A stretch of 64,000 nt of DNA from Beroe forskalii (lineage: Eukaryota > Ctenophora > Nuda > Beroida > Beroidae), in contig WFMF01000007.1 of NCBI GenBank assembly GCA_011033025.1, positions 186,001-250,000 of the forward strand, read 5' to 3'. Below the pieces are notes generated by a model. That model saw only the letters and a program-made list of their open reading frames with translations. It was not told where the DNA came from and made no database searches. The position numbers and the translations under genes are program-made. Shown here one piece after another: positions 4,726-60,500 of the stretch (within the stretch, counting starts at the first letter, position 1; the number at the start of each line of letters is the position of its first letter).

Positions 4726-4860
4726 TTGCTAAGCAACAGATATGGAATACTTGGTTGCTAAGCAACATAAACTGAGTGCAGGGTTGCTAAGCAACATAAA
4801 CTGAATGCAGGGTTGCTAAGCAACATAAACTGAATGCAGGGTTGCTAAGCAACAGACACT
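4726..4860. repeat. 29-bp minisatellite overlapping the RasGRF stop codon
   Basis: Four to five units built on the palindromic core GTTGCTAAGCAAC, separated by ATAAACTGAATGCAG-like spacers. The unit nearest the gene supplies the last codons and the TAG stop (4845-4847) of the RasGRF reading frame. Confidence 0.8.
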
Positions 4861-4994
4861 GAGTGTTCAATGTTTGGAGCCACTGGGGATCTCTGGTTGC
4901 GAGGTTCTAAAGTGTAGCTTCTTTCGAATATCTTGTCCTCTGAGAGGGCGTTGCTGCAGTTCACTAGAATTTGCTTGATAACATCTGGGAGTAC
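4845..4994 (-). CDS. RASGRF: RasGRF last exon (CDC25 C-terminus, stop)
   Basis: Acceptor TTGTCCAG, then 49 codons and TAG at 4845-4847. The peptide has ALSEDKIFERSYTLEPR, matching the end of RASGRF proteins (DEESLYE..LRIEPK). It joins the exon at 6688-6744 in phase 0. The last five codons lie in a minisatellite unit. Confidence 0.88.
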   Translation of the reverse strand, partial: VLPDVIKQILVNCSNALSEDKIFERSYTLEPRNQRSPVAPNIEHSVSVA

Positions 4995-7900
4995 CTGGAC
5001 AATGTAATCGTTAGATACCAACATTTAATAGGGAGGTTCAAAAAATAATTTTTACTCGAATTAATTTCAGACAGTGATTATATGTTGACCAAGGGGCTCA
5101 ATAGCCACCAAAAGAAATTTCGGTCGAAAGTCGAAAATTTGACCCCTGCACATGGCCACGCCCTGTTTTTTGACTTTCTTATACAGGTAAAAATACGAAA
5201 AATCGATTTTTGGTCCAAGAAAGTTGGACCCACTGCCGACAGACTCGGGCTCTCCAACAACCAGCTGACTGTCATGACTGCTGTCATCACCAACCACGGA
5301 GGAGGGGACATCGACAACCTTGCCCTATCGAAGTCATCCGACCCGGAGGTCACGGAAGAGAGCGGCAGGAGCAGAGGAGATCAGAGAGAGCCTTCAGTGT
5401 GAAGTGGGGCAGGTCAGATGGGAAGCTTCTCAAGGAACTTGGAGGGATGGAGAAGGTGAACAGGCTGTGGTCCTGGTGCAGGAGGAGGAGATGCTGGGGC
5501 TGGTGCAGACAGAGGATTCAACTGGGAAGGTGGAAGCTGAGAAGGCAACCCTGGACTCTTGGTCAATTGCAGAGAAGATTGTTGCCTGTGGGTTCGACAC
5601 GACAGCATCGAACACTGGTGTGCACAAGGGAGCCTGCACGATCCTACAGTCCTTCTTCAAGTTCCTGAAGCCTCAATGGCAATCCTTGGACCTCTCAACA
5701 TCACCCTGCCGAAGATCTGAAGTTCCTGAGGTCCTTCATCCAAAGCTGTCTCCTTCCTGACAAGAGCGTCCGAGAGAAGATTACAGAGAGTTTCTGGAGC
5801 TGGGAAAGTTGGGGGAGATGTGGAAGAGAGGCACCTACACCCTACACCGGCCGGGAGCAGATCACCCTACACCGGCCGGGAGCAGATCACCACGCCCGCT
5901 GGATGAGCAAGGCCCTCCACACCCTAAAAGTCACCCTCCTCCTCCCTCACCACTCTCCCTTGGTACAGGAAGAAACAGCCGGAGAAGATGTCCCTCTCCA
6001 TCGTGTTCGTGTGCCTCAAGTCCTGGTTCACGGCTCCACTCCTCCTCAGTGCTGCCGCCTCTGACCTGGAACTCTTCACCAGAATCAGAAAGTTCTCCAA
6101 GGTCCACAAGAAGATGGCTGGGGTTGCAGAAGACGTCTTGCAGAAGAACTCATCCCCTTGTCTCTCTTCAACGCCAACCTACTAGAGGACACCCTCAACG
6201 AGCTTTCACAGAGGACCAGCCTCCCATCCAGAAGCCTACCCTTCCTAAGGTCGCTACAGGCTCCACCATCCCAGACTTCGTTGGTCCAGGGACGACAGTC
6301 TTCTTCAACATCCTTGGGGTACCTCACACCTTCCTGACGCGCCCTGACTGGAGAACCTCATCCGAGTTCCACCAGAACCTTCCTCGGCGCCGATCGGTGA
6401 TTTTGCTTGCAGTGCCCACTTGCAGACTCTAGATTGTTGGTATTTAACGATTACATTGGGCACCGCAAGAAAAATCACCGATCGGCGCCGAGTCGAGGAT
6501 TTTGCAGTGTCCATTTGCCCTACAATCTATAAACCACAACATAAAAAGCCACGATCTAAGATCGGTACAAGCAAAAAAAAAACAAGTGAAGTAGGTAGGA
6601 TCCTCTAAATTCTAAAATCACATGGTCTGAAAGTAAACTTGAAGATTTGAAGAGTGTGATTAAAACAGGACTCCGGCAACTGCTTACCTCAATATCGTAA
6701 TAAGTCTGCTGGTAAAGTCTTATCTCCAAAATGGTGTGAGCCAGCTGAAATAATACAGAGTTTTTAACATTCTACTGTTTCACCTTATGCGAGATATATT
6801 GCACGCGTTACACGCTCTTTTAGTCATTATAATTGCATTATTGCATTATGGGATTATTGCATTTGATAAGTAAAACTTCTGAAAGTTGTCGTTTTGATGA
6901 AATTAACAAGCATTAGAGGTGTTGCTAATTAGTCATGAGTGTGGCAATGATGCTGACGGGTGTGGAGAGGTTATTATTTTGGTTCTAGGTCATTTGGCCT
7001 AACTGGACATTTGGCCTAACGCATTAAACTCAAGAAATACTCAAGAAATTTTGAATTTATCTCTCTCCCCTGACCCTAACCAGTGTTAGGCCAGATGTCC
7101 AGTTAGGCCAAATGACCGAATACCTATTATTTTGTAGCAACGGTATTTTCTATACGTGTCCACTTCATACGACTAACTACATGGAGGTGGTGAGAACTAT
7201 AATATCTTAACGTTTTTAAATGAAATAAATATGGGCACTTTTACTATTTATTTTGCAGCATCTATGATTATCATACAAATATGATTTGATTGGTATAATT
7301 TAAGGGGAACACTGCTATTATGGCTAAGCTGTGTTGTGTTCCCTAAGTTATATGTACATTTTATATTATTACAATAATATATTTAAAGTTTCGACATAAA
7401 TATACCATTCTCATCTTAGCGAAGTTGATGAGTCCGTTGGAGTTGAGGTTCTGAACTCCCTCCTCTATGGAGATGAGGTCAGCGAGGTAGACTCCTACGT
7501 AGGGGACACATGGGGGGTCACACCTGGAGAGAAATTATAGGGGGTCACAGAACTGAGAGGGACACATGGGGGGTAACACCTGGAGAGAAATTATAGGGGG
7601 TCACAGAACTGAGAGGGACACATGGGGGTCACACCTGGAGAGAAATTATAGGGGTCACAAAACTGAGAGGGACACATGGGGGTCACACCTGGAGAGAAAT
7701 TATAGGGGTCACAGAACTGAGAGGGACACATGGGGGGTAACACCTGGAGAGAAATTATAGGGGTCACAGAACTGAGAGGGACACATGGGGGTCACACCTG
7801 GAGAGAAATTATAGGGGTCACAGAACTGAGAGGGACACATGGGGGTCACACCTGGAGAGAAATTATAGGGGTCACAGAACTGAGAGGGACACAGAGGGTC

Positions 7901-10900
7901 ACACCTGGAGAGATATTATAGGGGTCACAGAACTGAGAGGGACACATGGGGGTCACACCTGGAGAGAAATTATAGGGGGTCACAGAACTGAGAGGGACAC
8001 ATGGGGGGTCACACACGGAGAGAAATTATAGGGGGTCACAGAACTGAGAGGGACACATGGGGGGTCACACCTGGAGAGAAATTATAGGGGGTCACAGAAC
8101 TGAGAGGGACACATGGGGGGTCACACGGAGAGAAATTATAGGGGTCACAGAACTGAGAGGGACACATGGGGGTCACACCTGGAGAGAAATTATAGGGGTC
8201 ACAGAACTGAGAGGGACACATGGGGGGTCACACCTGGAGAGAAATTATAGGGGGTCACAGAACTGAGAGGGACACATGGGGGGTCACACCTGGAGATATA
8301 TAGGGGGGTCACAAAACTGAGAGGGACACATGGGGGGTCACACCTGGAGAGAAATTATAGGGGGTCACAGAACTGAGAGGGACACATGGGGGGTCACACC
8401 TGGAGAGAAATTATAGAGGGTCACAGAACTGAGAGGGACACATGGGGGGTCACACCTGGAGAGAAATTATAGAGGGTCACAGAACTGAGAGGGACACATG
8501 GGGGGTCACACCTGGAGAGAAATTATAGGGGGTCACAGAACTGAGAGGGACACATGGGGGGTAACACCTGGAGAGAAATTATAGGGGGTCACAGAACTGA
8601 GAGGGACACATGGGGGTCACACCTGGAGAGAAATTATAGGGGGTCACAGAACTGAGAGGGACACATGGGGGGTCACACCTGGAGAGAAATTATAGGGGGT
8701 CACAGAACTGAGAGGGACACAGAGGGTCACACCTGGAGAGATATTATAGGGGGTCACAGAACTGAGAGGGACACATGGGGGGTCACACCTGGAGAGAAAT
8801 TATAGGGGGTCACAGAACTGAGAGGGACACATGGGGGGTCACACACGGAGAGAAATTATAGGGGGTCACAGAACTGAGAGGGACACATGGGGGGTCACAC
8901 CTGGAGAGAAATTATAGGGGGTCACAGAACTGAGAGGGACACATGGGGGGTCACACACGGAGAGAAATTATAGGGGGGTCACAGAACTGAGAGGGACACA
9001 TGGGGGTCACACCTGGAGAGAAATTATAGGGGGTCACAGAACTGAGAGGGACACATGGGGGGTCACACCTGGAGAGAAATTATAGGGGTCACAGAACTGA
9101 GAGGGACACATGGGGGGTCACACCTGGAGATATATAGGGGGTCACAAAACTGAGAGGGACACATGGGGGTCACACCTGGAGAGAAATTATAGGGGGTCAC
9201 AGAACTGAGAGGGACACATGGGGGGTCACACCTGGAGAGAAATTATAGAGGGTCACAGAACTGAGAGGGACACATGGGGGGTCACACCTGGAGAGAAATT
9301 ATAGAGGGTCACAGAACTGAGAGGGACACATGGGGGGTCACACCTGGAGAGAAATTATAGGGGTCACAAAACTGAGAGGGACACATGGGGGTCACACCTG
9401 GAGAGAAATTATAGGGGGTCACAGAACTGAGAGGGACACATGGGGGTCACACCTGGAGAGAAATTATAGAGGGTCACAGAACTGAGAGGGACACATGGGG
9501 GTCACACCTGGAGAGAAATTATAGGGGGTCACAGAACTGAGAGGGACACATGGGGGTCACACCTGGAGAGAGAAATTATAGGGGTCACAGAACTGAGAGA
9601 GGGACACATGGGGGGTCACACCTGGAGAGAAATTAGGGGTCACAGAACTGAGAGGGACACATGGGGGTCACACCTGGAGAGAAATTATAGGGGTCAACAA
9701 ACTGAGAGGGACACATGGGGGGTCACACCTGGAGAGAAATTATAGGGGTCACAAAACTGAGAGGGACACATGGGGGTCACACCTGGAGAGAAATTATAGG
9801 GGTCAACAAACTGAGAGGGACACATGGGGGGTCACACCTGGAGAGAAATTATAGGGGTCACAAAACTGAGAGGGACACATGGGGGGTCACACCTGGAGAG
9901 AAATTATAGGGGGTCAACAAACTGAGAGGGACACATGGGGGTCACACCTGGAGAAATTATAGGGGGTCACAGAACTGAGAGGGACACATGGGGTCACACC
10001 TGGAGCGAAATTATAGGGGGTCACAGAACTGAGAGGGACACATGGGGGGTCACACCTGGAGAGATATTATAGGGGGTCACAGAACTGAGAGGGACACATG
10101 GGGGTCACACCTGGAGAGAAATTATAGGGGGTCACAGAACTGAGAGGGACACATGGGGGTCACACCTGGAGCGAAATTATAGGGGGTCACAGAACTGAGA
10201 GGGACACATGGGGGGTCACACCTGGAGAGATATTATAGGGGGTCACAGAACTGAGAGGGACACATGGGGGTCACACCTGTAGAGAAATTATAGGGGGTCA
10301 CAGAACTGAGAGGGACACATGGGGGTCACACCTGGAGCGAAATTATAGGGGGTCACAGAACTGAGAGGGACACATGGGGGGTCACACCTGGAGAGATATT
10401 ATAGGGGGTCACAGAACTGAGAGGGACACATGGGGGTCACACCTGTAGAGAAATATAGGGGGTCACAGAACTGAGAGGGACACATGGGGGGTCACACCTG
10501 GAGAGAAATTATAGGGGTCACAGAACTGAGAGGGACACATGGGGGGTCACACCTGGAGATATTATAGGGGGTCACAGAACTGAGAGGGACACATGGGGGG
10601 TCACACCTGGAGAGATATAGGGGGTCACAGAACTGAGAGGGACACATGGGGGGTCACACCTGGAGAGAAATTATAGGGGTCACAAAACTGAGAGGGACAC
10701 ATGGGGGGTCACACCTGGAGAGAAATTATAGGGGGTCAACAAACTGAGAGGGACACATGGGGGGTCACACCTGGAGAGAAATTATAGGGGGTCACAGAAC
10801 TGAGAGGGACACATGGGGGTCACACCTGGAGCGAAATTATAGGGGGTCACAGAACTGAGAGGGACATGGGGGTCACACACCTGGAGAGATATTATAGGGG

Positions 10901-13900
10901 TCACAGAACTGAGAGGGACACATGGGGGGTCACACCTGGAGAGAAATTATAGGGGTCACAGAACTGAGAGGGACACATGGGGGTCACACCTGGAGAGAAA
11001 TTATAGGGGTCACAGAACTGAGAGGGACATGGGGGGTCACACCTGGAGATATTATAGGGGGTCACAGAACTGAGAGGACACATGGGGGTCACACCTGGAG
11101 AGATATAGGGGGGTCACAAAACCGAGAGGGACACATGGGGGGTCACACCTGGAGAGAAATTATAGGGGGTCACAGAACTGAGAGGGACACATGGGGGTCA
11201 CACCTGGAGCGAAATTATAGGGGGTCACAGAACTGAGAGGGACACATGGGGGGTCACACCTGGAGAGAAATTATAGGGGTCACAGAACTGAGAGGGACAC
11301 ATGGGGGTCACACCTGGAGAGAAATTATAGGGGTCACAGAACTGAGAGGGACACATGGGGGTCACACCTGTAGAGAAATTATAGGGGGTCACAGAACTGA
11401 GAGGGACACATGGGGGGGTCACACCTGGAGAGAAATTATAGGGGGTCACAGAACTGAGAGGGACACATGGGGGGTCACACCTGGAGATATTATAGGGGGT
11501 CACAGAACTGAGAGGGACACATGGGGGGTCACACCTGGAGAGATATAGGGGGGTCACAAAACCGAGAGGGACACAGAGGGTCACACCTGGAGAGAAATTA
11601 TAGGGGGTCACAGAACTGAGAGGGACACACGGGGGGTCACACCTGGAGAGAAATTACAGGGGTCACAGAACTGAGAGGGACACATGGGGGTCACACCTGG
11701 AGAGAAATTATAGGGGGGTCACAGAACTGAGAGGGACACATGGGGGTCACACCTGGAGAGAAATTATAGGGGGTCACAGAACTGAGAGGGACACATGGGG
11801 GGTCACACCTGGAGAGAAATTATAGGGGGGTCACAAAACTGAGAGGGACACAGAGGGTCACACACGGAGAGATATAGGGGGGTCACAAAACCGAGAGGGA
11901 CTATAAAAATTCCATAAAACAAAACCATCTCTTATCAGTGCTTAGTTATAAGGACCATACGGACCAAGGACCATAAGGATCACACCAAGTGCAATTTTCA
12001 TTTTGGTCCAAGGGGCTAAGAGACCATTAGATTAAAGGCGTGTTAAGAAAAGCCGGTTAGAGAAGCCCTAGTAAAAAGGCCGCTTGGAAAAGGGCTGGTA
12101 AGATATGATAGGGTATGATATGGTATGATAGGGTTAGGGTTAGTATGTAGTTACTATGATAGTATGTAGCTACGAAAAAGAGAAAGCAATTTGTGCCCCA
12201 CCGTTTGATCTCTGCTTTCATGTTTTTGAATCTGTTGCTGACAGATGCTACTTCCTTCAGGGCGTTCAGTTCGTTCTTCATCTGCAGGAATTAGTAATGA
12301 GTAACCAATTGTAAGGAATGCAGCAAACATGGGAGTGAATTAATTGGTCAGGGATAACTAATAGAGAGATAAAACCGTGTTCATTCGTTTAAACCAGCAA
12401 ATGAAACATATGCCTGCCGTTGCTCCTGAACTTCTACAGCCATTTCTTCAAGAGTTATAAAAAAGGTGTGAATACTGAATAGGGCCTGGCCGAGTCAAAA
12501 TGTAGAGACTTGAAACCCAGAATAAACAAAAACATTTCTACGGTTTGTATTAAAAGAGAATGCTTACCTCTTGAGGGACAATACACCAGGTGTACTTGAG
12601 TCTCTGTATGGCACTGAACGTCAAACCAGCGATCACCTGGGAGGGACAGTGGTTAGCTGCACCAAACTGAAATACTGCATACTGGTATAGTGTACTGGTA
12701 TCTAGTCTATAGACTGTAAAGTATAGGTACTGGTATAGTATAGCGGGCGCGCGTAGCCCAGCGAAACATTTGACACTAAATTTGCTATCCCCTCCGGATG
12801 TAGCCCGGCCCGCGAGACAGGTCAATTTCGGTTGCTATATAGCCCGTCCTCTTGGAAGAAAATATGTTGCGATGCCAAACTGGCTGAGAGCATTGAATGT
12901 TTATTTTATGTGTATATTTTATGCGTATAAACACATAAAAACACATACATACACATGCACATGTACATAATACCCATACCCATACAATACACAGTACTAC
13001 AGTACACACACACAATACACATGCAGTGAGACAGTAGGATCTACACACAATTAACAGCACCTCATTATACCGCATAAGGCGTGAAGCTGTTCAGGTAATG
13101 ATTCACACTTTATATCTCTCCGAGAGCGCTCTGCTCTGTGCTGCTATGACTCAAACACACGACTATTAGGTGAAGTTATCAGAGCCTCATTTTCTAGCTG
13201 TCACATGTGTGACATGTCACAATATGTTAAATGTGGCATGTGACATGTCATTGTCATGCCGCAGGTGGTTTGTGGGGAGTTTAAAGACTCAGTAACTCGG
13301 TACCAGCTCAGCAAAACCTAAACCTCACGGGCTTCCAAATAAGCGTACTTTTGTGTGGCGAACTTGGGTATACCTACTGGGTTGTACCTACTCTGGTGTA
13401 GGTACTGGGTCAGTAGGCACTGGGGTGTGCTGGATTTCAAACTATTCCATGTAAGCGGGGGGATTGCAAATAAGCAGGGAGTAGAGGGGCTGAAGGTTTG
13501 GTCGTATGTCCATGTAATTGTTTGTAAGAAAAAACCATGCATAATCCCACGCTATGAAGTAACAGTGATTCTTAGCGTTGTTGAGGGTGATCTGGAGTTC
13601 AAAGGTGCATCATTGCCCAAGTGAAACAATTTGAGGGTTCAACATCGGATCAAAACTGGATCCAGCCATAATGAAAAATCTAGACCAAAAAATATAGAGC
13701 TAATATTTCTATTCTAGGCATTCGACTGGCATTCAAACTTGTTTAGCCATCATTTATATCGGTTGATGGGCAACCGATTCATTAATTTATATGTGAATAT
13801 CAGACCCAATAAAAACAAACATCGTCCATGAATCGAAAAAAATTTCTATTGGAGTATTCTATTGGATTCTAGACCAGTCTTTCACGGCAGACACGATGGA

Positions 13901-16900
13901 AATAAAATTAGAGCTATAAATCAATGAAAAATTGCCGATAATTACGTTCTTTATTCTTAGTCCATTTTACGAATAAATATCGTATGTCGACGAAAAAAAT
14001 GTCTGAATAGCAATAATATAGATTTTTATTTTTTTATTTTTGTTTTAAACTTATAACACTACTATTTACTCTCAAATTTGAGGTAACTCAATGAATTTTG
14101 CACTGATGATGATTTGAAAGTACTTTGCATTAAAAGGTCAGCTCGTTGTGGTTATTCGTGTTGTGGAACTTGGCAAATACAGTGTTTTATTTTTTTGTTC
14201 AACGATTTGTTTGTATGTTCGCATGTTTGTATATTAGTATTTTTGTATGTTCGTATGTTTGTATGTTCGTATGTCGGTATGTTTGTACGTCGGTATGTTT
14301 GTATGTTGTTTGTTTGTATGTCTGTTTGTTCGTATTCCTGCCTCTCACCTGGAGCAGGCTGGCGAAGTTGTTGTATTTGCGGCACAGGTTCGCTACGTTG
14401 ATCCACCGGTTGATGGTTTTAGCTCGGGTGCTCGCCGTTTCCCCTGAGAGGACTTCGCTCGCCACCATGTTGGACATCTTGTCACAGCGCTGCATTATTG
14501 AGCAGATGTGCGGCGCTCGATCCTTGTCTTTCACCCACGACTTATCCAGGAACTCACTGTGAAGTTACAGATTAGAAGGAACAACTGTGGGATAAGAGAT
14601 TGGAGGGAGCGACTGTGGGATTAGAGACTGGAGGGAGCAACTGTGGCATTAGAGATTGGAGGGAGCAACTGTGGGATTAGAGATTGGAGGGAGCAACTGT
14701 GGGATTAGAGATTGGAGGGAGCAACTGTGGGATTAGAGATTGGAGGGAGCAACTGTGGGATTAGAGACTGGAGGGAGCAACTGTGGGATTAGAGATTGGA
14801 GGGAGCAACTGTGGGATAAGAGCTTAGAGAATAGAGGGAGCAACTGTGGGATTAGAGATTGGAGGGAGCAACTGTGGGATTAGAGATTGGAGGGAGCAAC
14901 TGTGGGATTAGAGATTAGAGGGAGCAACTGTGGGATTAGAGCTTAGAGGGAGCAACTGTGGGATTAGAGATTAGAGGGAGCAACTGTGGGATTAGAGATT
15001 GGAGGGAGCAACTGTGGGATAAGAGCTTAGAGAATAGAGGGAGCAGCTGTGGGATTAGGGATTGGAGGGAGCAACTGTGGGATTAGAGCTTAGAGGGAGC
15101 AACTGTGGGATTAGAGATTGGAGGGAGCGACTGTGGGATTAGAGATTAGAGGGAGCAACTGTGGGATTAGAGACTGGAGGGAGCAACTGTGGGATTAAAG
15201 ATTAGAGGGAGCAACTGTGGGATTAGAGACTGGAGGGAGCAACTGTGGGATTAAAGATTAGAGGGAGCAACTGTGGGATTAGAGATTGGAGGGAGCAACT
15301 GTGGGATAAGAGCTTAGAGAATAGAGGGAGCAGCTGTGGGATTAGGGATTGGAGGGAGCAACTGTGGGATTAGAGCTTAGAGGGAGCAACTGTGGGATTA
15401 GAGATTGGAGGGAGCGACTGTGGGATTAGAGATTAGAGGGAGCAACTGTGGGATTAGAGACTGGAGGGAGCAACTGTGGGATTAAAGATTAGAGGGAGCA
15501 ACTGTGGGATTAGAGATTGGAGGGAGCAACTGTGGGATTAGAGATTAGAGGGAGCAACTGTGGGATTAGAGCTTAGAGGGAGCAACTGTGGGATTAGAGA
15601 TTAGAGGGAGCAACTGTGGGATTAGAGATTAGAGGGAGCAACTGTGGGATTAGAGATTGGAGGGAGCAACTGTGGGATTAGAGATTAGAGGGAGCAACTG
15701 TGGGATTAGAGATTGGAGGGAGCAACTGTGGGATTAAAACGCTCAAATGTTAATATGTACAGTAAGTGGAATATGCCTGTACAATTAAAGCAGTAACCAA
15801 ACACTCCTCAACATGTTAGACCTACTTGGGGGCTATTTCAGTGAGTGCCCAATGCTCCAGGATGGTGAGTTGCTGGGCCATGACATCACACTCCACCTGG
15901 ACAGACAGGCCGGACAGACAGCTGTATTCCCCACTCTTGTTAAAGTACTGGTTGTAGATCTCTCCGATGGGGTACGCCGCACTGGAGCCTTCTTGCAGGG
16001 CCAGCGACCTGGGTAATGGCTTTACAATGCTGGGGTAAAGGGGGGGGGGGGAGTGGTGAAGTTTCAAATTATAGAACAACGACAGAAATGATGTATCATT
16101 TGATAGAATCTACGATCTCATTGAAGTCACAGTATTTTGAGATCTAAGGAAGAGGAATGTATCTGAGAGTGACTTGCTGCTCCTAGGAAAATGAACCTGT
16201 GAATGATGTTCACAGCCTTGCGACCGCACTGTGTCATGTTGGAGTCGTTAGAAGCTACCTGCTCCAAAAACACCATGAGTCTCTGGTGCAAGGAGGGGTC
16301 CGATACAAAATCCTGAGGGATGTCAATTAGTCCGATACGAAGTCCTGAAGGATGTCATTTAGTCGCTGGTGTGGCGGATAGCGTTCTTACCCGAACCCTT
16401 ATCCCCAACCAAAACCATCTGAACCCACACCGAAACCCCGAACATGATTATACTTAGGGTGAGTTCGGATGGTTCCAAGTTTTTTGGGTGGGTTCGGGTG
16501 AAATACAGGGTGTTTTGAGCAATACCTGATAGTATTTAGAGATCCAGCTCTTAATCACGTTGAAAACTCTCATTGCTACCTCGCTGTAGTATTTGCCTGC
16601 CATGAACACGGGATCAGACCTGGGAGTTTGGGAGTTAGAAGTGCACTGCTTTTTATACTTTTATACATGCAATAAACCCTCCTGCCTGATGAAATAAACC
16701 CACCCGACTGATGTAACAAACCCACCCGACTGATGTAATAAACCCACCCGACTGATGTAATAAAACCCATCTGACTGATGTAATAAACCAACCCGACTGA
16801 TGTGATAAAACCCATCTGACTGATGTAATAAAACCCACCCGTGTGATGTTATAAAACCCATCTGACTGATGCAAATAAAACCCACCCGACTGATGTAATA

Positions 16901-19900
16901 AATCTACCCGACTGATGTAATAAACCCACCCGACTGATGTGATGAAACCCAACCAACTGATGTAACAAACCCACCCGACTGATGTAACAAACCCACCCGA
17001 CTGAAGTAATAAACCCACCCGACTGATGTGATAAACCCACCCGACTGATGTAACAAACCCACCCGACTGAAGTAATAAACCCACCCGACTGATGTAACAA
17101 ACCCACCCGACTGATGTGATAAACCCACCCGACTGATGTAACAAACCCACCCGACTGAAGTAATAAACCCACCCGACTGATGTGATAAACCCACCCGACT
17201 GATGTTATAAAACCCACCCGACTGATGTGATAAAACCCACCTGACTGATGTAATAAAACCCACCCGACTGATGTAATGAACCCACCCGACTGATGTAACA
17301 AACCCACCCGACTGATGTTATAAAACCCACCCGACTGATGTGATGAAACCCACCTGACTGATGTAATAAAACCCACCCGACTGATGTAATGAACCCACCC
17401 GACTGATGTAACCAACATACCCGACTGATGCAATAAACCCACCTGACTGATGTAATAAAACCCACTCGACTGATGTAATAAACCCACCCGACTGATGTAA
17501 TAAACCCACCCGACTGATGTGATAAAACCCACCCAACTGATGTAATAAAACCCACCCGGCTGATGTAATAAAACCCACCCGACTGATGTAATAAAACCCA
17601 CCCGGCTGATGTAATAAAACCCACCCGACTGATGTAATAAAAACCCACCCGGCTGATGTAATAAAACCCACCCGACTGATGTGATAAAACCCACCCGACT
17701 GATGTGATAAAACCCACCCGACTGATGTAATAAAACCCACCCGACTGATGTAACAAACCCACCCGACTGATGTAATAAACCCACCCGACTGATTTAATAA
17801 ACCCACCCGACTGATTTAATAAACCCACCCGACTGATGTGATAAAACCCACCCGACTGATGTAATAAACCCACCCGACTGATGTAATAAAAACCCACCCG
17901 ACTGATGTAATAAACCCACCCGACTGATGTAATAAAACCCACCCGACTGAAGTAGTAAAACCCATCTGACTGATGCAATAAAACCCACCCGACTGATGCA
18001 ATAAACCCACCCGACTGATGTAATAAAACCCACCCGACTGAAGTAATAAAACCCATCTGACTGATGCAATAAAACCCACCCGACTGATGTAATAAACCCA
18101 CCCGACTGATGTAATAAAACCCACCCGACTGATGTAATAAACCCACCCGACTGATGTAATAAAACCCATCTGACTGATGTAATAAACCAACCCGACTGAT
18201 GTGATAAAACCCATCTGACTGATGTAATAAAACCCACCCGTGTGATGTTATAAAACCCATCTGACTGATGCAAATAAAACCCACCCGACTGATGTAATAA
18301 ATCTACCCGACTGATGTAATAAACCCACCCGACTGATGTGATGAAACCCAACCAACTGATGTAACAAACCCACCCGACTGATGTAACAAACCCACCCGAC
18401 TGAAGTAATAAACCCACCCGACTGATGTGATAAACCCACCCGACTGATGTAACAAACCCACCCGACTGAAGTAATAAACCCACCCGACTGATGTAACAAA
18501 CCCACCCGACTGATGTGATAAACCCACCCGACTGATGTAACAAACCCACCCGACTGAAGTAATAAACCCACCCGACTGATGTGATAAACCCACCCGACTG
18601 ATGTTATAAAACCCACCCGACTGATGTGATAAAACCCACCTGACTGATGTAATAAAACCCACCCGACTGATGTAATGAACCCACCCGACTGATGTAACAA
18701 ACCCACCCGACTGATGTTATAAAACCCACCCGACTGATGTGATAAAACCCACCTGACTGATGTAATAAAACCCACCCGACTGATGTAATGAACCCACCCG
18801 ACTGATGTAACCAACATACCCGACTGATGCAATAAACCCACCTGACTGATGTAATAAAACCCACTCGACTGATGTAATAAACCCACCCGACTGATGTAAT
18901 AAACCCACCCGACTGATGTGATAAAACCCACCCAACTGATGTAATAAAACCCACCCGGCTGATGTAATAAAACCCACCCGACTGATGTAATAAAACCCAC
19001 CCGGCTGATGTAATAAAACCCACCCGACTGATGTAATAAAACCCACCCGGCTGATGTAATAAAACCCACCCGACTGATGTGATAAAACCCACCCGACTGA
19101 TGTGATAAAACCCACCCGACTGATGTAATAAAACCCACCCGACTGATGTAACAAACCCACCCGACTGATGTAATAAACCCACCCGACTGATTTAATAAAC
19201 CCACCCGACTGATTTAATAAACCCACCCGACTGATGTGATAAAACCCACCCGACTGATGTAATAAACCCACCCGACTGATGTAATAAAACCCACCCGACT
19301 GATGTAATAAACCCACCCGACTGATGTAATAAAACCCACCCGACTGAAGTAGTAAAACCCATCTGACTGATGCAATAAAACCCACCCGACTGATGCAATA
19401 AACCCACCCGACTGATGTAATAAAACCCACCCGACTGAAGTAATAAAACCCATCTGACTGATGCAATAAAACCCACCCGACTGATGTAATAAACCCACCC
19501 GACTGATGTAATAAAACCCACCCGACTGAAGTAATAAAACCCATCTGACTGATGCAATAAAACCCACCCGACTGATGTGATAAAACCCACCCGACTGATG
19601 CAATAAAACCCACCCGACTGATGCAATAAAACCCATCTGACTGATGTGATAAAACCCATCTGACTGATGCAATAAAACCCACCCGACTGATGTGATAAAA
19701 CCCACCCGACTGATGTGATAAAACCCACCCGACTGATGTGAGGGAGTGGCGGGGAGGAGGGGATTGCTTCTCGAAGATGTTGTTTTTGGGAAGGTAGGAT
19801 GGACTCTCTGGCACACCGTTGTCTGGCAGCTGACAAAAAGGGAATTTATGCCAAGAAGTGGTGTTTTGGACTATTTATGGCATGATGCCAAGTCCACAAA

Positions 19901-44960: not shown

Positions 44961-45517
44961 ACTGATGTGAGGGAGTGGCGGGGAGGAGGGGATTGCTTCT
45001 CGAAGATGTTGTTTTTGGGAAGGTAGGATGGACTCTCTGGCACACCGTTGTCTGGCAGCTGACAATAAGGAAATGTATGCCTATAAAGTGGCGTTTTGGA
45101 CTATTTATTATTATTATAATGGCATGATGCCAAGTCCACTAGAACCAATAAATCATTCAGCTGAGGTGTAGCAGCCATGATTGCATTGTGATGGTGATGC
45201 AGCGGTTATTTGCTTGATATATCTCTAACAAGTAATCATCTAATCATACAAAAACGGCCATCTGGCCACTTCCAATTTCGGCTATATGGCCGTTGAAACC
45301 CCCCACTAAAGTACAATTTTCCAATGCCTTTGACAGATAAGAAAGACACACGCGACAACCTACCTTAGCTAGTGCATCGTAGTAGGTATTGATGATGTAG
45401 CCCAGGACTGTGTGACCGTCAGTGAAGCACCGGTACGTCAGTAAGAACGTGTTGAGGTACTCCACTCCCAGAAACCTGGCGTCCATGAGGCGTTCCAACA
45501 ACTTGTCCAGGCTGGCA

Positions 45518-47745
45518 TACCTCACCTGTGGGGAGTGATGCTGACATACCTCACCTGTGGGGAGTGATGCTGACATACCTCACCTGTGGGGAGTGATGCT
45601 GCATACCTCACCTGTGGGGAGTGATGCTGACATACCTCACCTGTGTCCTGTGGGGAGTGATGCTGCATACCTCACCTGTGGGGAGTGATGCTGCATACCT
45701 CACCTGTGGGGAGTGATGCTGCATACCTCACCTGTGGGGAGTGATGCTGACATACCTCACCTGTGGGGAGTGATGCTGCATACCTCACCTTTGGGGAGTG
45801 ATGCTAACATACCTCACCTGTGGGGAGTGATGCTGCATACCTCACCTTTGGGGAGTGATGCTAACATACCTCACCTTTGGGGAGTGATGCTAACATACCT
45901 CACCTGTGGGGAGTGATGCTGACATACCTCACCTGTGGGGAGTGATGCTGCATACCTCACCTGTGGGGAGTGATGCTGGCATACCTCACCTGTGTCCTGT
46001 GGGGAGTGATGCTGCATACCTCACCTTTGGGGAGTGATGCTAACATACCTCACCTGTGGGGAGTGATGCTGCATACCTCACCTGTGGGGAGTGATGCTGA
46101 CATACCTCACCTGTGGGGAGTGATGCTGCATACCTCACCTGTGGGGAGTGATGCTGACATACCTCACCTGTGGGGAGTGATGCTGCATACCTCACCTGTG
46201 GGGAGTGATGCTGCATACCTCACCTGTGGGGAGTGATGCTGCATACCTCACCTGTGGGGAGTGATGCTGACATACCTCACCTGTGGGGAGTGATGCTGCA
46301 TACCTCACCTTTGGGGAGTGATGCTAACATACCTCACCTGTGGGGAGTGATGCTGCATACCTCACCTGTGGGGAGTGATGCTAACATACCTCACCTGTGG
46401 GGAGTGATGCTAACATACCTCACCTGTGGGGAGTGATGCTGACATACCTCACCTGTGGGGAGTGATGCTGACATACCTCACCTGTGGGGAGTGATGCTGC
46501 ATACCTCACCTGTGGGGAGTGATGCTGCATACCTCACCTGTGGGGAGTGATGCTGACATACCTCACCTGTGGGGTGATGCTGCATACCTCACCTGTGGAG
46601 GAGTGTCTTGACATACTCACCTGTGGGGAGTGATGCTGCATACCTCACCTGTGGGGTGATGCTTTGACATACCTCACCTGTGGGGAGTGCACATACCTCA
46701 CCTGTGGGGAGTGATGCTGCATACCTACACAGAAAGTCACTGCATACCTCTCACCTGTGGGGAGTGACATACACCTCACCTGTGAGTGATGACATACCTC
46801 ACCTGTGGGGAGTGATGCTGCATACCTCACCTGTGGGGAGTGTGCTGCATACCTCACCTGTGGGGTGATGCTGACATACCTCACCTGTGGGGAGTGATGC
46901 ACATACCTCACCTGTGGGGAGATGCTGACATACCTCACCTGTGGGGAGTGATGCTGCATACCTCACCTGTGAGATGCTGACATACCTCACCTGTGGGAGT
47001 GATGCTGACATACTCACCTGTGGGGGATGCTGATCACCTTTGACATACCTCACCTGTGGGTGCTGACACCTCACCTGTGGGGGTGATTTGACATACCTCA
47101 CCTGTGGGGGTACTTTGGCATACCTCACCTGTGGGATGAGGTGATGCTGCATACTCATCACCTGTGGGGAGTGATGCTGCATACCTCACCTGTGGGGAGT
47201 GATGCTGACATACCTCACCTGTGGGGAGTGATGCTGCATACCTCACCTGTGGGGAGTGATGCTGCATACCTCACCTGTGGGGAGTGATGCTGACATACCT
47301 CACCTGTGGGGAGTGATGCATACCTCACCTGGGGAGTGATGCTGACTGCATACCTCACCTGTGGGGAGTGATGCTGCATACCTCACCTGTGGGGAGTGAT
47401 GCTGCATACCTCACCTGTGGGGAGTGATGCTGACATACCTCACCTGTGGGGAGTGATGCTGACATACCTCACCTGTGGGGAGTGATGCTGACATACCTCA
47501 CCTGTGGGGAGTGATGCTGACATACCTCACCTGTGGGGAGTGATGCTGCATACCTCACCTGTGGGGAGTGATGCTACATAACTCACCTGTGGGGAGTGAT
47601 GCTGCATACCTCACCTGTGGGGAGTGATGCTGACATACCTCACCTGTGGGGAGTGATGCTGACATACCTCACCTGTGGGGAGTGATGCTGACATACCTCA
47701 CCTGTGGGGAGTGATGCTACATACCTCACCTGTGGGGAGTGATGC
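45518..47745. repeat. 28/29-bp minisatellite carrying the REM exon acceptor (block B only)
   Basis: About 75 units of CACCTGTGGGGAGTGATGCTG(A)CATACCT. On the minus strand each reads TCACTCCCCACAG|GTGAGGTATG(T/C)CAGCA, the acceptor and first bases of the REM exon. Block A has this sequence only once (20315-20335). Units between about 46560 and 47160 are scrambled. Confidence 0.93.
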
Positions 47746-48341
47746 TGAGGAGAGGTGGCTGTTGGAAATGGTTTCTTACACCTTTCAGAACTTCACGGAG
47801 GTTGGCGTGTCGGTTCCAGAAAAGAGTCAAAAGGTAAAAGGATTAAATCAAATGCCGTTTAAAATAGTTAACATTTAACTTTCATTAATTGGATCATGCA
47901 GTGTTTTAGTAATTATTTTAGGATAAAAAATCTCGATCTGGCAACAGCTTGATTTTTTGGTTCAAAGGGCCGGTCAAAAAAGGCTGGCTAAATAAAGGCC
48001 AAAAAGGAATGTTTTTGTGATTTTAGTATCCTTTGAACAATCACACCTAAGGGCTTTTCCTTTTGAAGCCCTTAGTGGTTCCCAAAGTGGGTTTCCAATG
48101 AACCAGTGACCTGTGTCAGGTGTGAAAACCTTAAGAAAAAGCCTACCGGCAGAGAACTCTGAGAGACTGGGAGCGAGTAATCCCCCTCCACGTGTTCCTC
48201 ATAACAAATACTTGCAAAGCGGACCGGCCGCAGCGCCGCCTCGTAGCATTCGCTACGGTCTTTAGGGATACGGGCGATGTACTTAACATTCGCACCACAG
48301 TTTGTAAAGATGATCTGGTAGTAATAATGCATCAAGTCATG

Positions 48342-48415
48342 CTGCACAAGAGTGAAGAAGTTAGTTAGAAGAGTAAAGAAGTTAGTTGGAAGAGTGAAGA
48401 AGTTAGTTAGAAGGG
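48342..48415. repeat. 21-bp branch-point repeat (block B)
   Basis: About three units of the AAGAGTGAAGAAGTTAGTTAG family upstream of exon 48147-48341, against six or seven in block A. Confidence 0.8.
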
Positions 48416-48419
48416 CAAT

Positions 48420-51200: not shown

Positions 51201-51204
51201 ACTG

Positions 51205-52410: not shown

Positions 52411-52502
52411 AATCACCATGTTCTAAAGTAGGAAACTCATTAAAATTTACCCCAACAGTCGAGCCCTCTCTTCATGATTCATTGCGTGCACTGTCTACTG
52501 AC

Positions 52503-52589
52503 CTGGTTGTCTGTTTTCTTTGAAGAGTTGGAAAGCAGCCTCCACACTGGTACTACACTCCCGAACCAGGTACGATATTATCATGTACC
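52503..52589 (-). CDS. RNGTT: RNGTT exon 3
   Basis: GYMIISYLVRECSTSVEAAF continuing QLFKENRQPG matches [20 protein letters not shown] and FAQARPPG. Acceptor CCCACAG, donor CCAG|GTCAGT; ends one base into a codon. No later exon with matching phase and family was found. Confidence 0.92.
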
Positions 52590-53490
52590 CTGTGGGTAAT
52601 AGATAATCAGACTCTAGAATTTAACAAACAAAAAGCAAACTTAAAGTTTATTGATTTCAGCGATCAGCACAGTCATAGCGGTCATTCATATTATCAAAGA
52701 ATCAAACAATAAATACTGTAAAAAAAGTCTATCTACGCATAACACATTTTGATTGCATTACAAGCGTCCATATCGAATCAGATCCCCTGACAATAGCGCA
52801 CCTGTCCTATTGAAGCCATGAGTACAGTGCACGCCGATCACTTTCCCAGGGTTCTTGCTCCAGAAGATGTTGCAGATACTGATGAACTTGTTAACTTGTT
52901 CATTGTTAGGCACTGCTCCGAACCCAGCACACTTTATCTTAACGTACTCAACTCCGTCCTCTTCGAATAGGGTCTTGTCGTAAAACCTGCAGAACCCCGA
53001 GAGTGTTATTATTTGTTACAGGACCAATTTTCATTTTGGCTGGAATTGTGTATTTCAATTTCAATCTAATTTATTTTCAAGATTGCAGATTTTCAAGATT
53101 GCAGATAAATTGCAGATTCTCACCTATCAGTTTTGGAAAGATCTATGATAAGTCGCAGATTCTCACCTATCAGTTTTAGACAAATCTATGATAAGTCCCA
53201 GATTCTCACCTATCAGTTTTGTAAAGGTCTATTCGAAAAGTCTCAGATTCTCACCTATCAGTTTTAGAGAGATCTATGATAAGTCCCAGATTCTCCACGC
53301 CGTCAACCAACATCCCCGGACTAAACCGACACTCTTCTGGTACGTTGTCATTGAACTTCTTATCTAGGGGGGTTTTGAGGGCCAGAAACCGGGGTCCTGG
53401 CATGACGGAACCTTTCCGGGGGCAGTGGAGCCATCGCGGGGGCACTTCTGTAGAGGAACCGCCTGACTTCCTCTTACCACTGAGGTTCAT
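52503..53490 (-). CDS. RNGTT: mRNA capping enzyme, 5' part (triphosphatase domain), truncated
   Basis: Three exons (53255-53490, 52802-52986, 52503-52589) join in phase and encode about 169 residues matching the N-terminal RNA 5'-triphosphatase domain of metazoan capping enzymes, a cysteine-phosphatase fold that removes the gamma phosphate of nascent mRNA in the nucleus. The signature HCTHGFNRTG fits the HCx5R(T/S)G active site. The guanylyltransferase domain (KADGTR motif) that should follow is absent; downstream are a 63-bp array and block B. The ATG at 53488-53490 opens MNLSGKRKSGG before the conserved PPRWLHCPRKG. NUP107 ends about 990 bp upstream. Either the gene is broken here or the assembly skips its 3' half. 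Confidence 0.9.
52802..52986 (-). CDS. RNGTT: RNGTT exon 2 with phosphatase active site
   Basis: RFYDKTLFEEDGVEYVKIKC and GKVIGVHCTHGFNRTG match capping enzymes ([20 protein letters not shown] ... LIGVHCTHGFNRTG). The catalytic Cys and Arg are present. TTCTGCAG acceptor, ACAG|GTGCGC donor. Confidence 0.95.
53105..53293. repeat. ~43-bp repeat of RNGTT exon-1 end and donor
   Basis: Four units, each on the minus strand giving GACTTATCATAGATCTTTCC then AAAACTGATAG|GTGAGAATCTG: about 30 coding bases for LIIDLSKTDR plus the 5' splice site. The first unit is the true exon end; the other three lie in the intron with few changes. Confidence 0.9.
53255..53490 (-). CDS. RNGTT: RNGTT exon 1
   Basis: ATG plus 77 codons and two bases. 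VPPRWLHCPRKG, FLALKTPLDKKFNDNVPEE and LGLIIDLSKTDR match the capping-enzyme N-terminus (PPRWLNCPRRG ... FLPLKTMLGPRYD ... LVDLTNTSR). Donor TAG|GTGAGA. The exon end is repeated downstream. Confidence 0.92.
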
Positions 53491-54578: not shown

Positions 54579-57500
54579 CTGGAGGTGATGATAATGATTT
54601 ATACGATCGTTTAGGTTGATTTGCTAATAGCAATGTTCGTTAAAAAGCAAAGATTCACTCTGCGTTCAATTATTTTACCACTGGACTATCACATGCTAGT
54701 TGCCATGTTCAATGTACAATGCACACGGTACATTATACACTATACACTATACAAGTTTACCTGTTGAGAGAAGAGTTTGTATAGCTGGTGCTCCTCACTG
54801 ACAATGTACTCAGAGAGTTCCACTACAGCTTCGTTCTGTCCTGACTCTACCAACACGTTAACTAGAAAATGTTCAGATACAGTGAGGGGTGAACAAGAGA
54901 TTAGGACAATGGGGTGAAAGTGAGATTAGGACAGGGGTCAAAGTGAAATTAGGATAAAGGGGTGAGTAAAATAATATAAGGACGGTTGTGTGCAAAACAT
55001 TCCCAAGTAATCAACATGAAACACCAAATTCCGCATCACATTCTCACCTAGGAGGAAGGTAGTAGCGGGGATGCACTGTGCACGCAGGGCGTGTAGCTGC
55101 TCAGCTCTGTCAGGGTCAGTTCCCTCTACCTCATCTACCAGCCATCCTCCGTCAATAAACAGTAGCACATTCAACATCTTGTCTCGAGTTAGCTGAAACA
55201 AGTTGTCATTCGACATCCAAAGTCTTGTCTCTATTTGGAAGGGGAGTAAATTCAATATTGAATGGTTGGCCTTAAGTGCCTCTAAGTTCAGCTTAGTTGC
55301 GCTTCAGCTAATTCCACTTCAAATTTTACATTTGTACGATGAACGTAAAAATATCATTTAAGAAACTAGTTAGCTGCGTTTGTATGATGAGGTTTTGTTC
55401 CCATCTCTGGACAGCCATATCATGCGCCTTCTTCCTCTCCTCCTCAGCCACCTGCTCACTGAATGTGGCTGTTTTACTGGTTGTACCTGGGATAGTGTGT
55501 ACTGGTTTACTGGTTGTAAAAACTGGTAATAAGTTAGTGTTAGCGCTCGAAGAAATATTGTCAAATCCGTCCCTTATTCCGTGGTGATTCCCTGCTTATT
55601 CAAGGGTGATTGGTAATATTCAATTAGTTCAAACATTCGAAATTACGTAAAGAAGCGATAGTCACTACTTTATCAAAATCGTGAGAATATGCAAGACTCA
55701 CAAGCTGGGCTGGGTGGTCTGTTAGCCGAGTGGGAACACCAGTCATTGTACGCCTGATGGGTGTCCAGGTACGCTTGTAGACAGAGGTACTCTCGCACTG
55801 CGTTGGTGTCATCAGGCGGCAGAGGCGTGTTCGGGTATTCTCTGGTCCACTCCCTGGGCAAGATCACTGGTGTCAGAGTGGAGGAGTGGTGTCAGAATGG
55901 AGTGGTGTCAGAGTGGAGTGGTGTCAGAGTGGAGTGGTGTCAGAGTGTTGGTTCAGAGTGAGCTGGTGTCAGAGTGGTGTCAGAGTGGACTGGTGTTAGA
56001 GTGGTGTCAGTGTGGTGTAGTGGTTTCAGAGTGGTGTCAGAGTAAGCTGGTGTCAGAGTGGTGTCAGAGTGGTGTCAGAGTGGTGTAGTGGTGTCAGAGT
56101 GGTGTAGTGGTGTCACAGTGAACTGGTGTCAGATTGGTCAAGTGGTGTCAGAGTGGACTTGTTTCAGAGTAGTAGAGAGGTGTCAGAGTGGCAAACGAAA
56201 TGGTACGTAAGAGCGGACTGGTGTCAGAGTGAGATAATATACGCTTAGAGCATGGCTGGGAATGCGCTAATAGAAATTATTGCACGAGGCGTAGCCGAGT
56301 GCAATAATTTTATTAGCGTCATGACCATTTGCCATGCTCTTAGTGTATTAGCCAATGTGAGGAGTGCAATATTACTTATTATTGCACGCCTACAAGTACC
56401 CTCAAAATTGGCTAGTGTCAAAAGGAGAGGTGTCAGAATGAAATGGTGTTAACAGTCAGAGTGAAGCGGTATCAGAGTGAAAACTGAAGGTATGAAGAAA
56501 TGCGGTAGTAACAGGGTGAACTGCTGAGTCGTAGAAAAGTGAAAAAGTGCGCTAAAAGCCCCACCTCTGTATTACATCAATAGAGTCGGGCGGGATCATT
56601 TCAAACACGGCGCACGCCGGTGCATGCTTCCTGGCGCCCAGAAAGCGGCGTATGAGTCTGTTAGCCTCCTTCAGCGCCGCACTGCGCTGCGTGTCGGCAA
56701 GGAGCAGCCAGGCGACAGCCGACACAACCTTAGCGTCGGTGTCGGAGATGTTCGCCACACTGATGACGTCACTGTTAGAGGGGGAGTGGTCCGAGACCAG
56801 GTTGTGGTATATCGTCATGGTAACGGACTCTATCTGCGGAGGAGATAACAGTGACGAATTGTATTTATAATGAGGTAATTATCTTGTTTTGAGCATGCAA
56901 CCAACACACTTCCCGACAGCACCAGACGGGGTAAAAGCAGAGGCAGCAACCTTCCACAGACGCTTACTCACGGAAGTTGGAAGGAAGTCATGAACAAATC
57001 ATTGTTTGATCTGTGCTTGCAGTGACCAAGCAATGAAGCAATGATATAAAGTCTGGCACGCTGCCAAGGCAACTTACAGTAATGTTGAACAAGGCAACTT
57101 ACAGTAATGTTGAACAAGGCAACTTACAGTAATGTTGAACAAGGCAACTTACAGGAATGTTGAACAAGGTAACTTACAGGAATGTTGAACAAGGTAAGTA
57201 GGTAACTTACAGTAATGTTGAACAAGGTAACTTACAGGAATGTTGAACAAGGCAACTTACAGTAATGTTGAACAAGGCAACTTACAGTAATGTTGAACAA
57301 GGTAACTTACAGGAATGTTGAACTGCAAGGCAAACTCGACACAAGGAGGCCGGTCCTCCTGCTCCACATTAGCCAGCACCTCACTCAGCAGTGAGATCTG
57401 AACTTCAGGGGAGAGTTGGGAGGTGTAGAAGAGGAGCTCCTCTATGCACTCCTCCTCTCTCAGCGACTGAGGGGTGTAAGAGTGGGTAAGAGAAGGAGTG

Positions 57501-60500
57501 GTAGAGAAGGGTTAGAGAAGGGGCGTTAGAGAGGGTTAGAGGAGGAGTGTTAGAGAAGGGTCGTTAGAGGGTGTGTTAGAGAGGGGGTGTTGGATAGGGG
57601 TGTTAGAGAGGGTTAGAGTAAGGTGTTAGAGATGTGTGTTAGAGAGGGTGTTAGAGATGGGACGTTAGATAGGGTTAGAGAAGGGGTGTTAGAGTGGGTT
57701 AGAGGAGGAGTGTTAGAGAAGGGTCGTTAGAGGGTGTGTTAGAGAGGGGGTGTTGGATAGGGGTGTTAGAGAGGGTTAGAGTAAGGTGTTAGAGATGTGT
57801 GTTAGAGAGGGTGTTAGAGATGGGACGTTAGATAGGGTTAGAGAAGGGGTGTTAGAGTGGGTTAGAGAAGGGGCGATAGAGAGGGTTAGAGATATGGTTA
57901 AATAAGGTGTGTTATAGAGGTGTGCTAGAGGAGGCGTTAGAGCGGGGAGGTTAAATTTGAAAAGGATTGTGGAATAGAAGAATGAAGTTGGACATTTATT
58001 TGAAAGGTGGTTTGGGAATTAAGCGGGAACTTAAGTACCTAAAGAATACTTCCTATAATGAAATCCTTACCCTGACGTATTTGGAGACAGTATCAGACAT
58101 AACGCCACTAGCCACGCCGGGATGCAGCAACTCCAGGACCAGGAGGAGGTGGCACAGGAAGCGTCGTTCACTGACACTAGCAGTGCCCATGTGGTGGGAT
58201 ACCGTGCCCAGGACACCCGGTATGTCACCGGCTATCAGCTGCAGTTGCAGCGTGTTGTACAGGTTGTCACTCTGCTTCAACTTTCCTGGGGGGTGGGGGT
58301 GAAGGGTTATGTTTAGAGGTTGTCACTCTGCTTCAACTTTCCTGGGGAGTGGTCGTGAGGAGTTATGAGAAGGATTGCTCCCGGAATAGTCTAGGCTAAT
58401 ATTGCCAATGACCCGAGACTACCACCTAGCAAGCTAAAAATTGGGAGTTATGTCCCTTATGGTGTCCTTGTTCCCCAAGAAAAAGTCTACCAACCGATCT
58501 TTGTCGGAAGTGGTCAAAACGGGCCACGCCCTTTTTTGACCGTGGGAATTTCTGGGAATAATTGAAATTTCAAGATTTTGAGGTCTACAAACAAGATTAT
58601 ACACTAAACACACTTATTTTGGTACGAGAAAAACGATGTGTGTCCGTTTTTGGATATGGCCATCATGGAAGCCGATAATGGGCCACGCCCTTATTGACCG
58701 TGGGAATTTTAGTGAAAATTTGGAATTTTAAGATTTTGAGTTCTACAAACAAGATTATACACTAAACCCACTTATTTTTGTATGAGAAAAACGCTGCAGG
58801 TGTCCATTTTTCGATATGGGCATCATGGAAGCCGATAATGGGCCACGCCCTTTTTGACCGTGGGAATTTTGGCGAAAAAATGAATCGTAAGACGATGATC
58901 TTTACAAGCAAGATTATACACTAAACCCATTTATTTTGGCACGAGAAAAACAAAGCAAGTGTCAATTTTTGTCTATGACCATCATGGAAGACGATAATGG
59001 GCCACGCCCTTTTTGACCGTGGAATTTCACCAAAAATTTTGAGCTTTTAATTCAAGATTATATACTAAAACCACTTATTGTTGGACGAGATGAACGATTC
59101 AAGTATTTATTATTTGAGCCATGACCATACTGAAAGCTGATATAATAGGTTGCGCACTTTTATGTATCCTTGCAAACTCTACTACAGGCTGACAGCTGAA
59201 AATTCTTCAAATTCAAAACACCAGTTTGTCACTCTTGTACTAGTACTACCAACTTGTCACTCGAATATGTGGTGAACAACTATACGATATAATAGGTTAG
59301 TTTACCTGCACTATGTCCACTCTTCTGCTGATTAACAGTCATGGAAAGTGGAAGAGAAATTTATGGTCGGGCAAAAGAGATTTCGTTCATATTGCCAAAA
59401 CAACCAGTACAACACTTGCGAAATCAACAGCCCGAAACTAGCAAGACGGCCATCCACCATTGGGACAATATATCAGTCCATTGCCTGATCTATTGATAGA
59501 GTGGGGGGTAGAGTGATCTTCATATTCATCACAACTGAAAGTTGGGGGTCAAGATACATGTTGGGTAATAAAATGTTGGAGTGCCTATTGCCTATACTGC
59601 TGGTGCAAGAAAGAAGGAGAGTGTATCCATCTATCAAAGAATCAATGCCGACTCAACCTCATGAACCTGGTATTGATGTATTGGGCATAAGGCGTTGTGA
59701 GGTCCAGTGAGGTCATCTTATCTGCTTTAAGCTCAGTAAATTGGCCAAGGTCACATCAACTGGCCGGTTTGATTAATGTGATTAATGTGGCAAATGACGA
59801 CCATACCACTTTAGTAGACTTAAGGTTCGCCGACTTCCCTTTGAAAGTTTCAAGAAGACCACGCTAGAAGACACGAGAGATAACACTAGAGGATCAACAT
59901 TAGAGGAACAATGTCGAAGGACCTGTTTCGTGGTGTCAACAAGAACAGCTTCCATTCAAGACCTTCCTGCGACTTGTCTTCTACTTCAGTGCACAATCCA
60001 TGACGAACCTGGAAGTTGTTGCCCTCACTGGACTCAGTGACAAGTGTGTGAGAGAGTGGAATCTCCACCCTATATCTCCTTCTTCACTTATCCATCTATG
60101 ATGGCAAAGTTCAGATCCAGACCTGCCCCTCCCGCATCTGCTTCACCTCCACCCACCACCCTCCTTCCATTAGACAGAGGGTATAAAGCCAACTTTCGTC
60201 GTAGTACCAATGGGTGTCTATATGCCTAACCATGGTGAACTCAGTGTAGATCCTTGCTGTACGGCATGTTAAACAAGGAATCGAAACTGAGGGGCTCCGT
60301 ACAGGACATTGCTATTGCGACCAATGTGATTATACAGATAAGATTTAGACTCTTTCATCAGTCTTCACATCCGCTAACACTGCTCCTAACATAGACCCTG
60401 CTTTTACAGACCCTGCTATCCCTGCTCCAACTGATCCTAAACTTGCTGCTGTACAACTCTCTCTCATACAGTATACACGGATCGGATGATTAAGGCTTTG

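Follow-up and report, generated by a model that had tools for sequence, protein, structure and literature searches.

In the ctenophore Beroe forskalii, minisatellite arrays whose repeat units contain a predicted exon-intron boundary occur in several unrelated genes, and the excess of arrays at exon edges over random placement is about two-fold. This excess is not proof of targeting. The arrays are probably ordinary minisatellites growing in the short introns of a repeat-rich ctenophore genome, a fraction of which straddles splice junctions, and a filter of tolerance would give the excess its leaning towards acceptors.

The stretch analysed (the window) comprises 64 kb of the 216 Mb assembly. 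Over the full query, the mitochondrial COX1 of this assembly shows 100% identity to the Beroe forskalii record, which points to this ctenophore or to a very near relative. Family matches identified three genes in it, NUP107, RasGRF and RNGTT, all of them on the minus strand. RhoGEF, PH-like and RasGEF parts of RasGRF were recognised by Pfam matches. RNGTT (52,400-53,520) was recognised by its phosphatase-domain exons alone, and a RasGRF duplicate follows downstream. According to TRF, approximately 45% of the window lies within tandem arrays, as compared to 12% in 205 kb sampled elsewhere in this assembly, next to kinesin, myosin and RasGEF exons. Thus, the window is unusually array-rich. In another ctenophore, Hormiphora, an excerpt of the genome report gives 13% of the genome as marked by Tandem Repeats Finder (PMC8527503).

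Exon cores were picked by eye from open reading frames (ORFs) and were supported by gene-family matches. Donors and acceptors were chosen by a script, blind to array positions, from generic GT/AG splice weights and from phase; for three introns, with ends at 16596, 16312 and 38336, the limits were read off the sequence manually. TRF confirmed that the arrays sit where the preliminary description of this DNA had placed them. They are the following:

7503..11901, minus strand: 56 bp unit in ~80 copies (TRF), which takes up the greater part of a RasGRF intron of 4.7 kb; the unit spans acceptor 7523 and includes 21 bp of the exon CDPPCVPYVG; within the intron, the array contains 71 occurrences of CTCCAGGTGT.
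14565..15736, minus strand: 28 bp unit in 41 copies, ending 8 bp from acceptor 14556; the units bear an acceptor-like CCACAG, which was counted 41 times.
16298..16364, minus strand: 32 bp duplication (2.1 copies) spanning acceptor 16312 of the RasGEF-region exon DFVSDPSL; the junction was set by hand, with phase 0 on both sides, and the duplication is also present in the other segmental copy (43943-44004).
16667..19739, minus strand: 23 bp unit in 136 copies, intronic and not junction-spanning, the closest junction (set by hand) being ~70 bp away.
37226..37524, minus strand: degenerate array of ~35 bp units, ending 4 bp from acceptor 37221 of the PH exon.
38323..39901, minus strand: 69 bp unit in ~23 copies, extending 14 bp beyond 38336 at the DH exon.
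40677..41025, minus strand: 40 bp unit in 8.7 copies, 13 bp from donor 41039 of a DH exon.
45511..47748, minus strand: 28-29 bp unit in ~79 copies, covering approximately -18 to +10 of the RasGEF_N acceptor in duplicate B.
53113..53295, minus strand: 43 bp unit in 4.2 copies, made of donor 53255 and the 41 bp of RNGTT exon that precede it; there are four donor copies, the true donor included.
55868..56191, minus strand: array of ~16 bp units of the CTGACACCACTC type, 14 bp from NUP107 acceptor 55853.
57065..57323, minus strand: 25 bp unit in 10 copies, spanning NUP107 donor 57311.
57469..57892, minus strand: array of 12-13 bp units with CTAAC and pyrimidines, 2 bp from NUP107 acceptor 57466.
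58253..58367, minus strand: 56 bp duplication (2 copies) spanning NUP107 acceptor 58285 with 33 bp of the exon; the donor of the intron ending here is weakly supported.

Eight splice sites had been named as lying inside repeat units. Five of them are backed by exon homology, namely acceptors 7523, 58285 and 45525, where the duplicated RasGEF_N exon starts after AG, and donors 53255 and 57311; the other three were not established. The exon at 38336 is real, as it is located within the RhoGEF match and is preceded by AG, but it is out of phase with the donor CGG/GTAAAT upstream (here and below, the slash marks the junction). The putative exon at 41459 had no Pfam match and, lacking a family, was rejected as a proven exon. 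Position 19729 was also rejected as a donor: it is the edge of an array in the intron that separates the RasGEF_N exon from the exon MRVFNV, and there is no exon at this site. The junction-spanning duplication at 16298-16364 was absent from the list. Among six further sites said to lie close to arrays, 14556, 37221, 55853 and 57466 were the top-scoring choice of the script, the PH match around 37221 being slightly under the Pfam cut-off. The remaining two are weaker. Position 41039 is a fair donor with a weak partner acceptor, and the ORF at 21038, common to both RasGRF duplicates, had no family match above the cut-off in the Pfam search; its sole match, a viral family far below the cut-off (E=0.09), was put down to chance.

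The claim that junction-spanning units occur in unrelated genes was extended by DNA from outside the window, and such units are now found across genes and contigs in kinesin, myosin, dynein, NUP107, RNGTT and RasGRF. In a dynein heavy chain gene on contig C441, the unit consists of the last 79 bp of an exon followed by GTAAGTT; the donor is present 8 times in one stretch and 3 times in its paralogue. This array was found because a Pfam search matched the same exon piece repeatedly, at a spacing of ~86 bp. Kinesin C897 harbours a 30 bp unit in 15 copies which spans an acceptor, and a unit of 112-168 bp in 16 copies which also spans an acceptor and carries the coding piece LSLVDLAGSER.

Two side observations concern the same gene families. 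At C291:170,900-175,000, pieces of kinesin exons (profile 221-264 and 266-300) turn up again every ~0.8-1.2 kb, as if an exon-bearing unit of ~800 bp were tandemly repeated. The short myosin exon matches on C847, C580 and C173 are surrounded by open frames of 881-1254 aa; it looks as though some of the intronic arrays nearby keep a frame open.

An independent sample was drawn from kinesin and myosin genes (75 of 138 kinesin and 60 of 83 myosin rows listed); the dynein DNA considered above, 1.8 kb, is separate from it. The 93 exon pairs of the sample gave 91 introns, 76 of which were retained on splice score and phase; these contain 36 arrays, and their median length is 242 bp. Since the introns are short, random placement was calculated in collapsed introns: each array, with its TRF basic period, was reduced to a single copy and treated as one random segment within its intron. 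An array was counted as spanning if its unit crosses the junction by at least 4 bp, and as near if it lies at most 15 bp off. In the sample, 12 of the 36 arrays were spanning or near, with 6.9 expected (P=0.011), and 7 were spanning, with 3.9 expected (P=0.066). Thus, comparison with random positions in this sample yielded an excess for both classes taken together, but not a significant one for spanning arrays alone.

The window test covered 13 introns with 18 arrays. Regions in which the exons are not settled were left out, namely 20.3k-37.0k, where large arrays lie at 24-32k and at 34.8k, duplicate B (41.8k-52.4k), several NUP107 introns (one of them contains the array 54885-54965) and everything below 7.4k; as a consequence, acceptor 45525 lies outside the counts. 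Because the idea originated in the window, its figures are post hoc: 6 arrays were spanning (2.9 expected) and 12 were spanning or near (4.9 expected). In a strict set of 16 arrays, from which the introns of 38336 and 41039 were removed and which still includes two weak introns (ending at 58285, with a poor donor, and at 16596, set by hand), the numbers were 5 (1.9 expected) and 10 (3.5 expected). When the sample and the strict window set were combined, 12 of 52 arrays were spanning with 5.9 expected (P=0.005), and 22 of 52 were spanning or near with 10.4 expected (P=2e-5).

The simplest view would be that random starts put arrays at exon edges and that no excess has to be explained. With a median intron of ~240 bp the chance expectation is indeed far above zero, amounting without any targeting to 6.9 of the 36 sample arrays and to 3.5-4.9 arrays in the window, and the spanning class of the sample is not significant. 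The earlier statement that random expansion would not land on junctions this often, and thus that chance could not explain the pattern, was not upheld in this wording: the expectation is substantial, the excess only about two-fold, and the coverage by arrays has no junction peak (see below). However, the P values for spanning or near arrays, both in the sample and together with the window, and the frequency of a branch-point-like motif above that in shuffled units (see below) make pure chance an improbable explanation. Without the filter on splice score and phase, 7 of 52 sample arrays were spanning, with 4.9 expected (TRF best-scoring periods). Among sample introns shorter than 1500 bp, 4 of 21 arrays were spanning with 3.5 expected, and in the four introns of at least 1500 bp there were 3 of 15 with 0.45 expected.

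The figure for the long introns favours an alternative in which duplications are born at junctions, seeded for example by co-transcriptional R-loops or by slipping pyrimidine tracts, so that the arrays would be truly anchored there. The excess of junction-associated arrays as such also agrees with this alternative, and so does the array in duplicate B, which lies exactly on the acceptor. However, junction-anchored birth predicts a density maximum at the junction, and this was not found in the coverage profile of 96 introns (76 from the sample and 20 from the window). Instead, array coverage climbs from the junction into the intron, where the deepest bins represent longer introns only, and decays over the exon edge to ~1% at 20-40 bp inside exons. 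On the acceptor side it is some 1.5-3 times greater than on the donor side. Both types of site are spanned, with 10 acceptors and 3 donors among 54 arrays when the uncertain 38336 is counted (P=0.09, not significant), and 32 arrays are nearer to the acceptor as compared to 21 nearer to the donor (P=0.17).

Copy number bears on the same alternative. Among arrays with at least three copies, 17 of 33 were spanning or near with 6.9 expected, whereas arrays with fewer than three copies showed no clear excess (5 of 19 with 3.5 expected, P=0.24). This hints at retention or growth more than at birth at junctions. When spanning is considered alone, the young arrays (4 of 19 with 1.9 expected, P=0.10) are as enriched as the expanded ones (8 of 33 with 3.95 expected). 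A retention filter does not predict this equal ratio, which would agree with birth at junctions. Taking all this together, we regard birth at junctions as rather unlikely, though it deserves attention.

A segmental duplication of part of RasGRF provides a natural comparison. Copies A (~13,900-25,200) and B (~41,800-52,400) differ by 3.3-5.1% mismatches in their unique aligned pieces. In copy A, the RasGEF_N acceptor (~20325) is plain, with CCCCTCAG joined at the junction to GTGAGGTATGCC and no array, while the corresponding acceptor in copy B is accompanied by ~79 copies of the 28-29 bp junction unit. In the simpler reading of these sequences, the array would have been gained in B after the duplication; alternatively, it may have been lost in A. 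An exact-match search found only four of the seven cores of the catalytic part in copy B, which may therefore be incomplete as a gene and less constrained. Minisatellites shared by the duplicates also differ in copy number (136 and 30 copies of a 23 bp unit, 41 and 28 of a 28 bp unit, ~87 and ~20 of a 63 bp unit).

Next to their position, the content of the units is informative. The metazoan branch-point consensus is CTRAY. We found this motif, which may not be that of Beroe, in the sense direction in 10 of 19 hand-chosen acceptor-side units (21038, 45525 and C664 among them), as compared to a mean of 3.0 in shuffled units and to 3 in the antisense direction. The looser motif YTNAY gave a smaller excess (15 of 19 with 10.7 expected, P=0.025). 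In the last 45 nt of array-free acceptors, CTRAY was present in 14 of 67 cases; before array-bearing acceptors, it was present in 5 of 9 cases in the sense and in 4 of 9 in the antisense direction.

The splice dinucleotides of the arrays are passengers, neither clearly shielded nor purged. AG or GT is intact in 93-100% of the copies of the six arrays scored (out of eight considered), which is approximately as intact as the other unit columns, and there is thus no sign that the copies are maintained for use as sites. This bears on the idea that the arrays are functional, the repeated sites being kept as splicing aids that provide site redundancy or allow stepwise (recursive) removal of long introns. 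The units at 7523, at 45525 and in kinesin C897 read AG/GT and could in principle serve as acceptor and donor. However, 6 of the 12 array-free acceptors in the window have AG/GT as well, the dinucleotides do not clearly exceed the other unit columns in conservation, and copy number is very different between duplicates. Recursive splicing is therefore a weak rival, and a function of the arrays seems very improbable to us.

We prefer minisatellite growth that is tolerated to a birth of arrays directed by splicing, and propose that such growth could proceed as follows. A segment, mostly of 15-90 bp, would be tandemly duplicated at a random position via slippage or microhomology; arrays of two copies are indeed observed. 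If the segment covers a junction, an intact splice site would persist next to the true exon, so that the message could stay normal and the array could persist. The array would expand, contract and be homogenised like any minisatellite, in line with the copy-number instability seen between paralogues, both in the RasGRF duplicates and in the C441 dynein stretches. At acceptors, arrays would be more readily retained if branch point, pyrimidine tract and AG are all supplied by each unit; otherwise, growth near the acceptor would separate the branch point from the AG. Judging from the correlations described above, such a tolerance filter at acceptors would yield an approximately two-fold, acceptor-leaning excess.

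It is tempting to go further and to speculate that splice-module minisatellites are a continuing, genome-wide mode of intron lengthening in ctenophores, with selection permitting growth at acceptors mainly when a unit suffices by itself as a 3' splice site. Introns would then bloat from their ends and stay removable, and amphioxus would have arrived at the same independently. We consider this a possible but doubtful extension.

The ctenophore arrays, in which predicted junctions lie inside tandem units, belong to the kind described as mirages in amphioxus (lancelet). In excerpts of two reports (PMC3087553, PMC3902484), amphioxus mirages are minisatellite-like duplications over exon-intron boundaries, affecting 5' or 3' splice sites, with units of 10 to 160 bp, variable copy number and AG/GT in many units. 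They were described in Adh3, the globins BflGb6 and BflGb9, troponin C and PGBD5. RT-PCR data for Adh3 and the globins suggest regular splicing according to the authors, and the authors of the globin study proposed mirage repeats as a source of new introns (PMC3087553, PMC3902484). As an intron-gain model was thus published for amphioxus (PMC3087553, in the part considered here), the suggestion in the preliminary description that added units bring their own splice site and let introns grow has a precedent. The ctenophore arrays resemble the mirages in that units contain the exon-intron boundary (7523, 58285, 53255, 57311, the hand-set 16312 and 7 of the 36 sample arrays), acceptors and donors are both affected, AG/GT is retained and copy number is unstable between paralogues. 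Unlike the mirages, they are found in a ctenophore, in several unrelated genes and in up to ~80 copies, and they were tested against random placement.

Related cases are known from human. The gene IFI6 (6-16) contains a minisatellite that provides several splice donors (Turri et al. 1995, as cited in an excerpt of PMC4526556); it shares with the ctenophore arrays repeat units that double as splice donors and differs in being a single locus. In human segmental duplications, according to an excerpt of PMC2812944, internal tandem repeats at exon-intron boundaries are accompanied by transcripts which back exon changes and novel introns; as in the ctenophore, minisatellites at exon-intron boundaries differ between paralogues. 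These systems are backed by RNA, by RT-PCR in amphioxus, by units used as donors in IFI6 and by transcripts of the novel introns in the segmental duplications, whereas the ctenophore arrays are known from DNA, from which the use of their splice sites is predicted.

In the model of Rogers, intron gain reportedly occurs via tandem duplication of AG/GT segments, as in a listed report on the RdRp gene of potato (PMC4974935). Tandem duplication carrying splice signals is common to this model and to our arrays, but in the ctenophore it is existing introns that are lengthening. Among the literature matches listed, titles and the beginnings of abstracts contained no ctenophore report of junction-spanning arrays. 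In the Beroe ovata genome paper, words that start with intron, tandem or satellite do not occur in the main text considered. With mirage-like arrays present outside chordates, either they evolved convergently or they arise generally as a by-product where a genome rich in minisatellites has short introns.

The arrays are of interest for several reasons. Where dozens of near-identical splice sites lie beside an exon, the choice made by the spliceosome is put to a natural test, and ready-made pairs exist for it, such as paralogues with and without an array (20.3k and 45.5k) or with few and many copies (the two dynein stretches of C441). Further, the tandem-duplication model of intron growth becomes countable.

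Two minor observations concern NUP107. The 16 bp units at 55,868-56,191 and those in a myosin gene (C225:1030929-1031943, TGACACCACTC and so on), both on the acceptor side, look nearly alike by eye, which may reflect convergence or spread. Another intron of NUP107 contains an element of ~3.2 kb (58,409-61,586) with long inverted arms of 355 and 230 nt, which are 91-94% complementary and contain 159 bp subrepeats; by its shape, it is a putative foldback or TIR-like mobile element.
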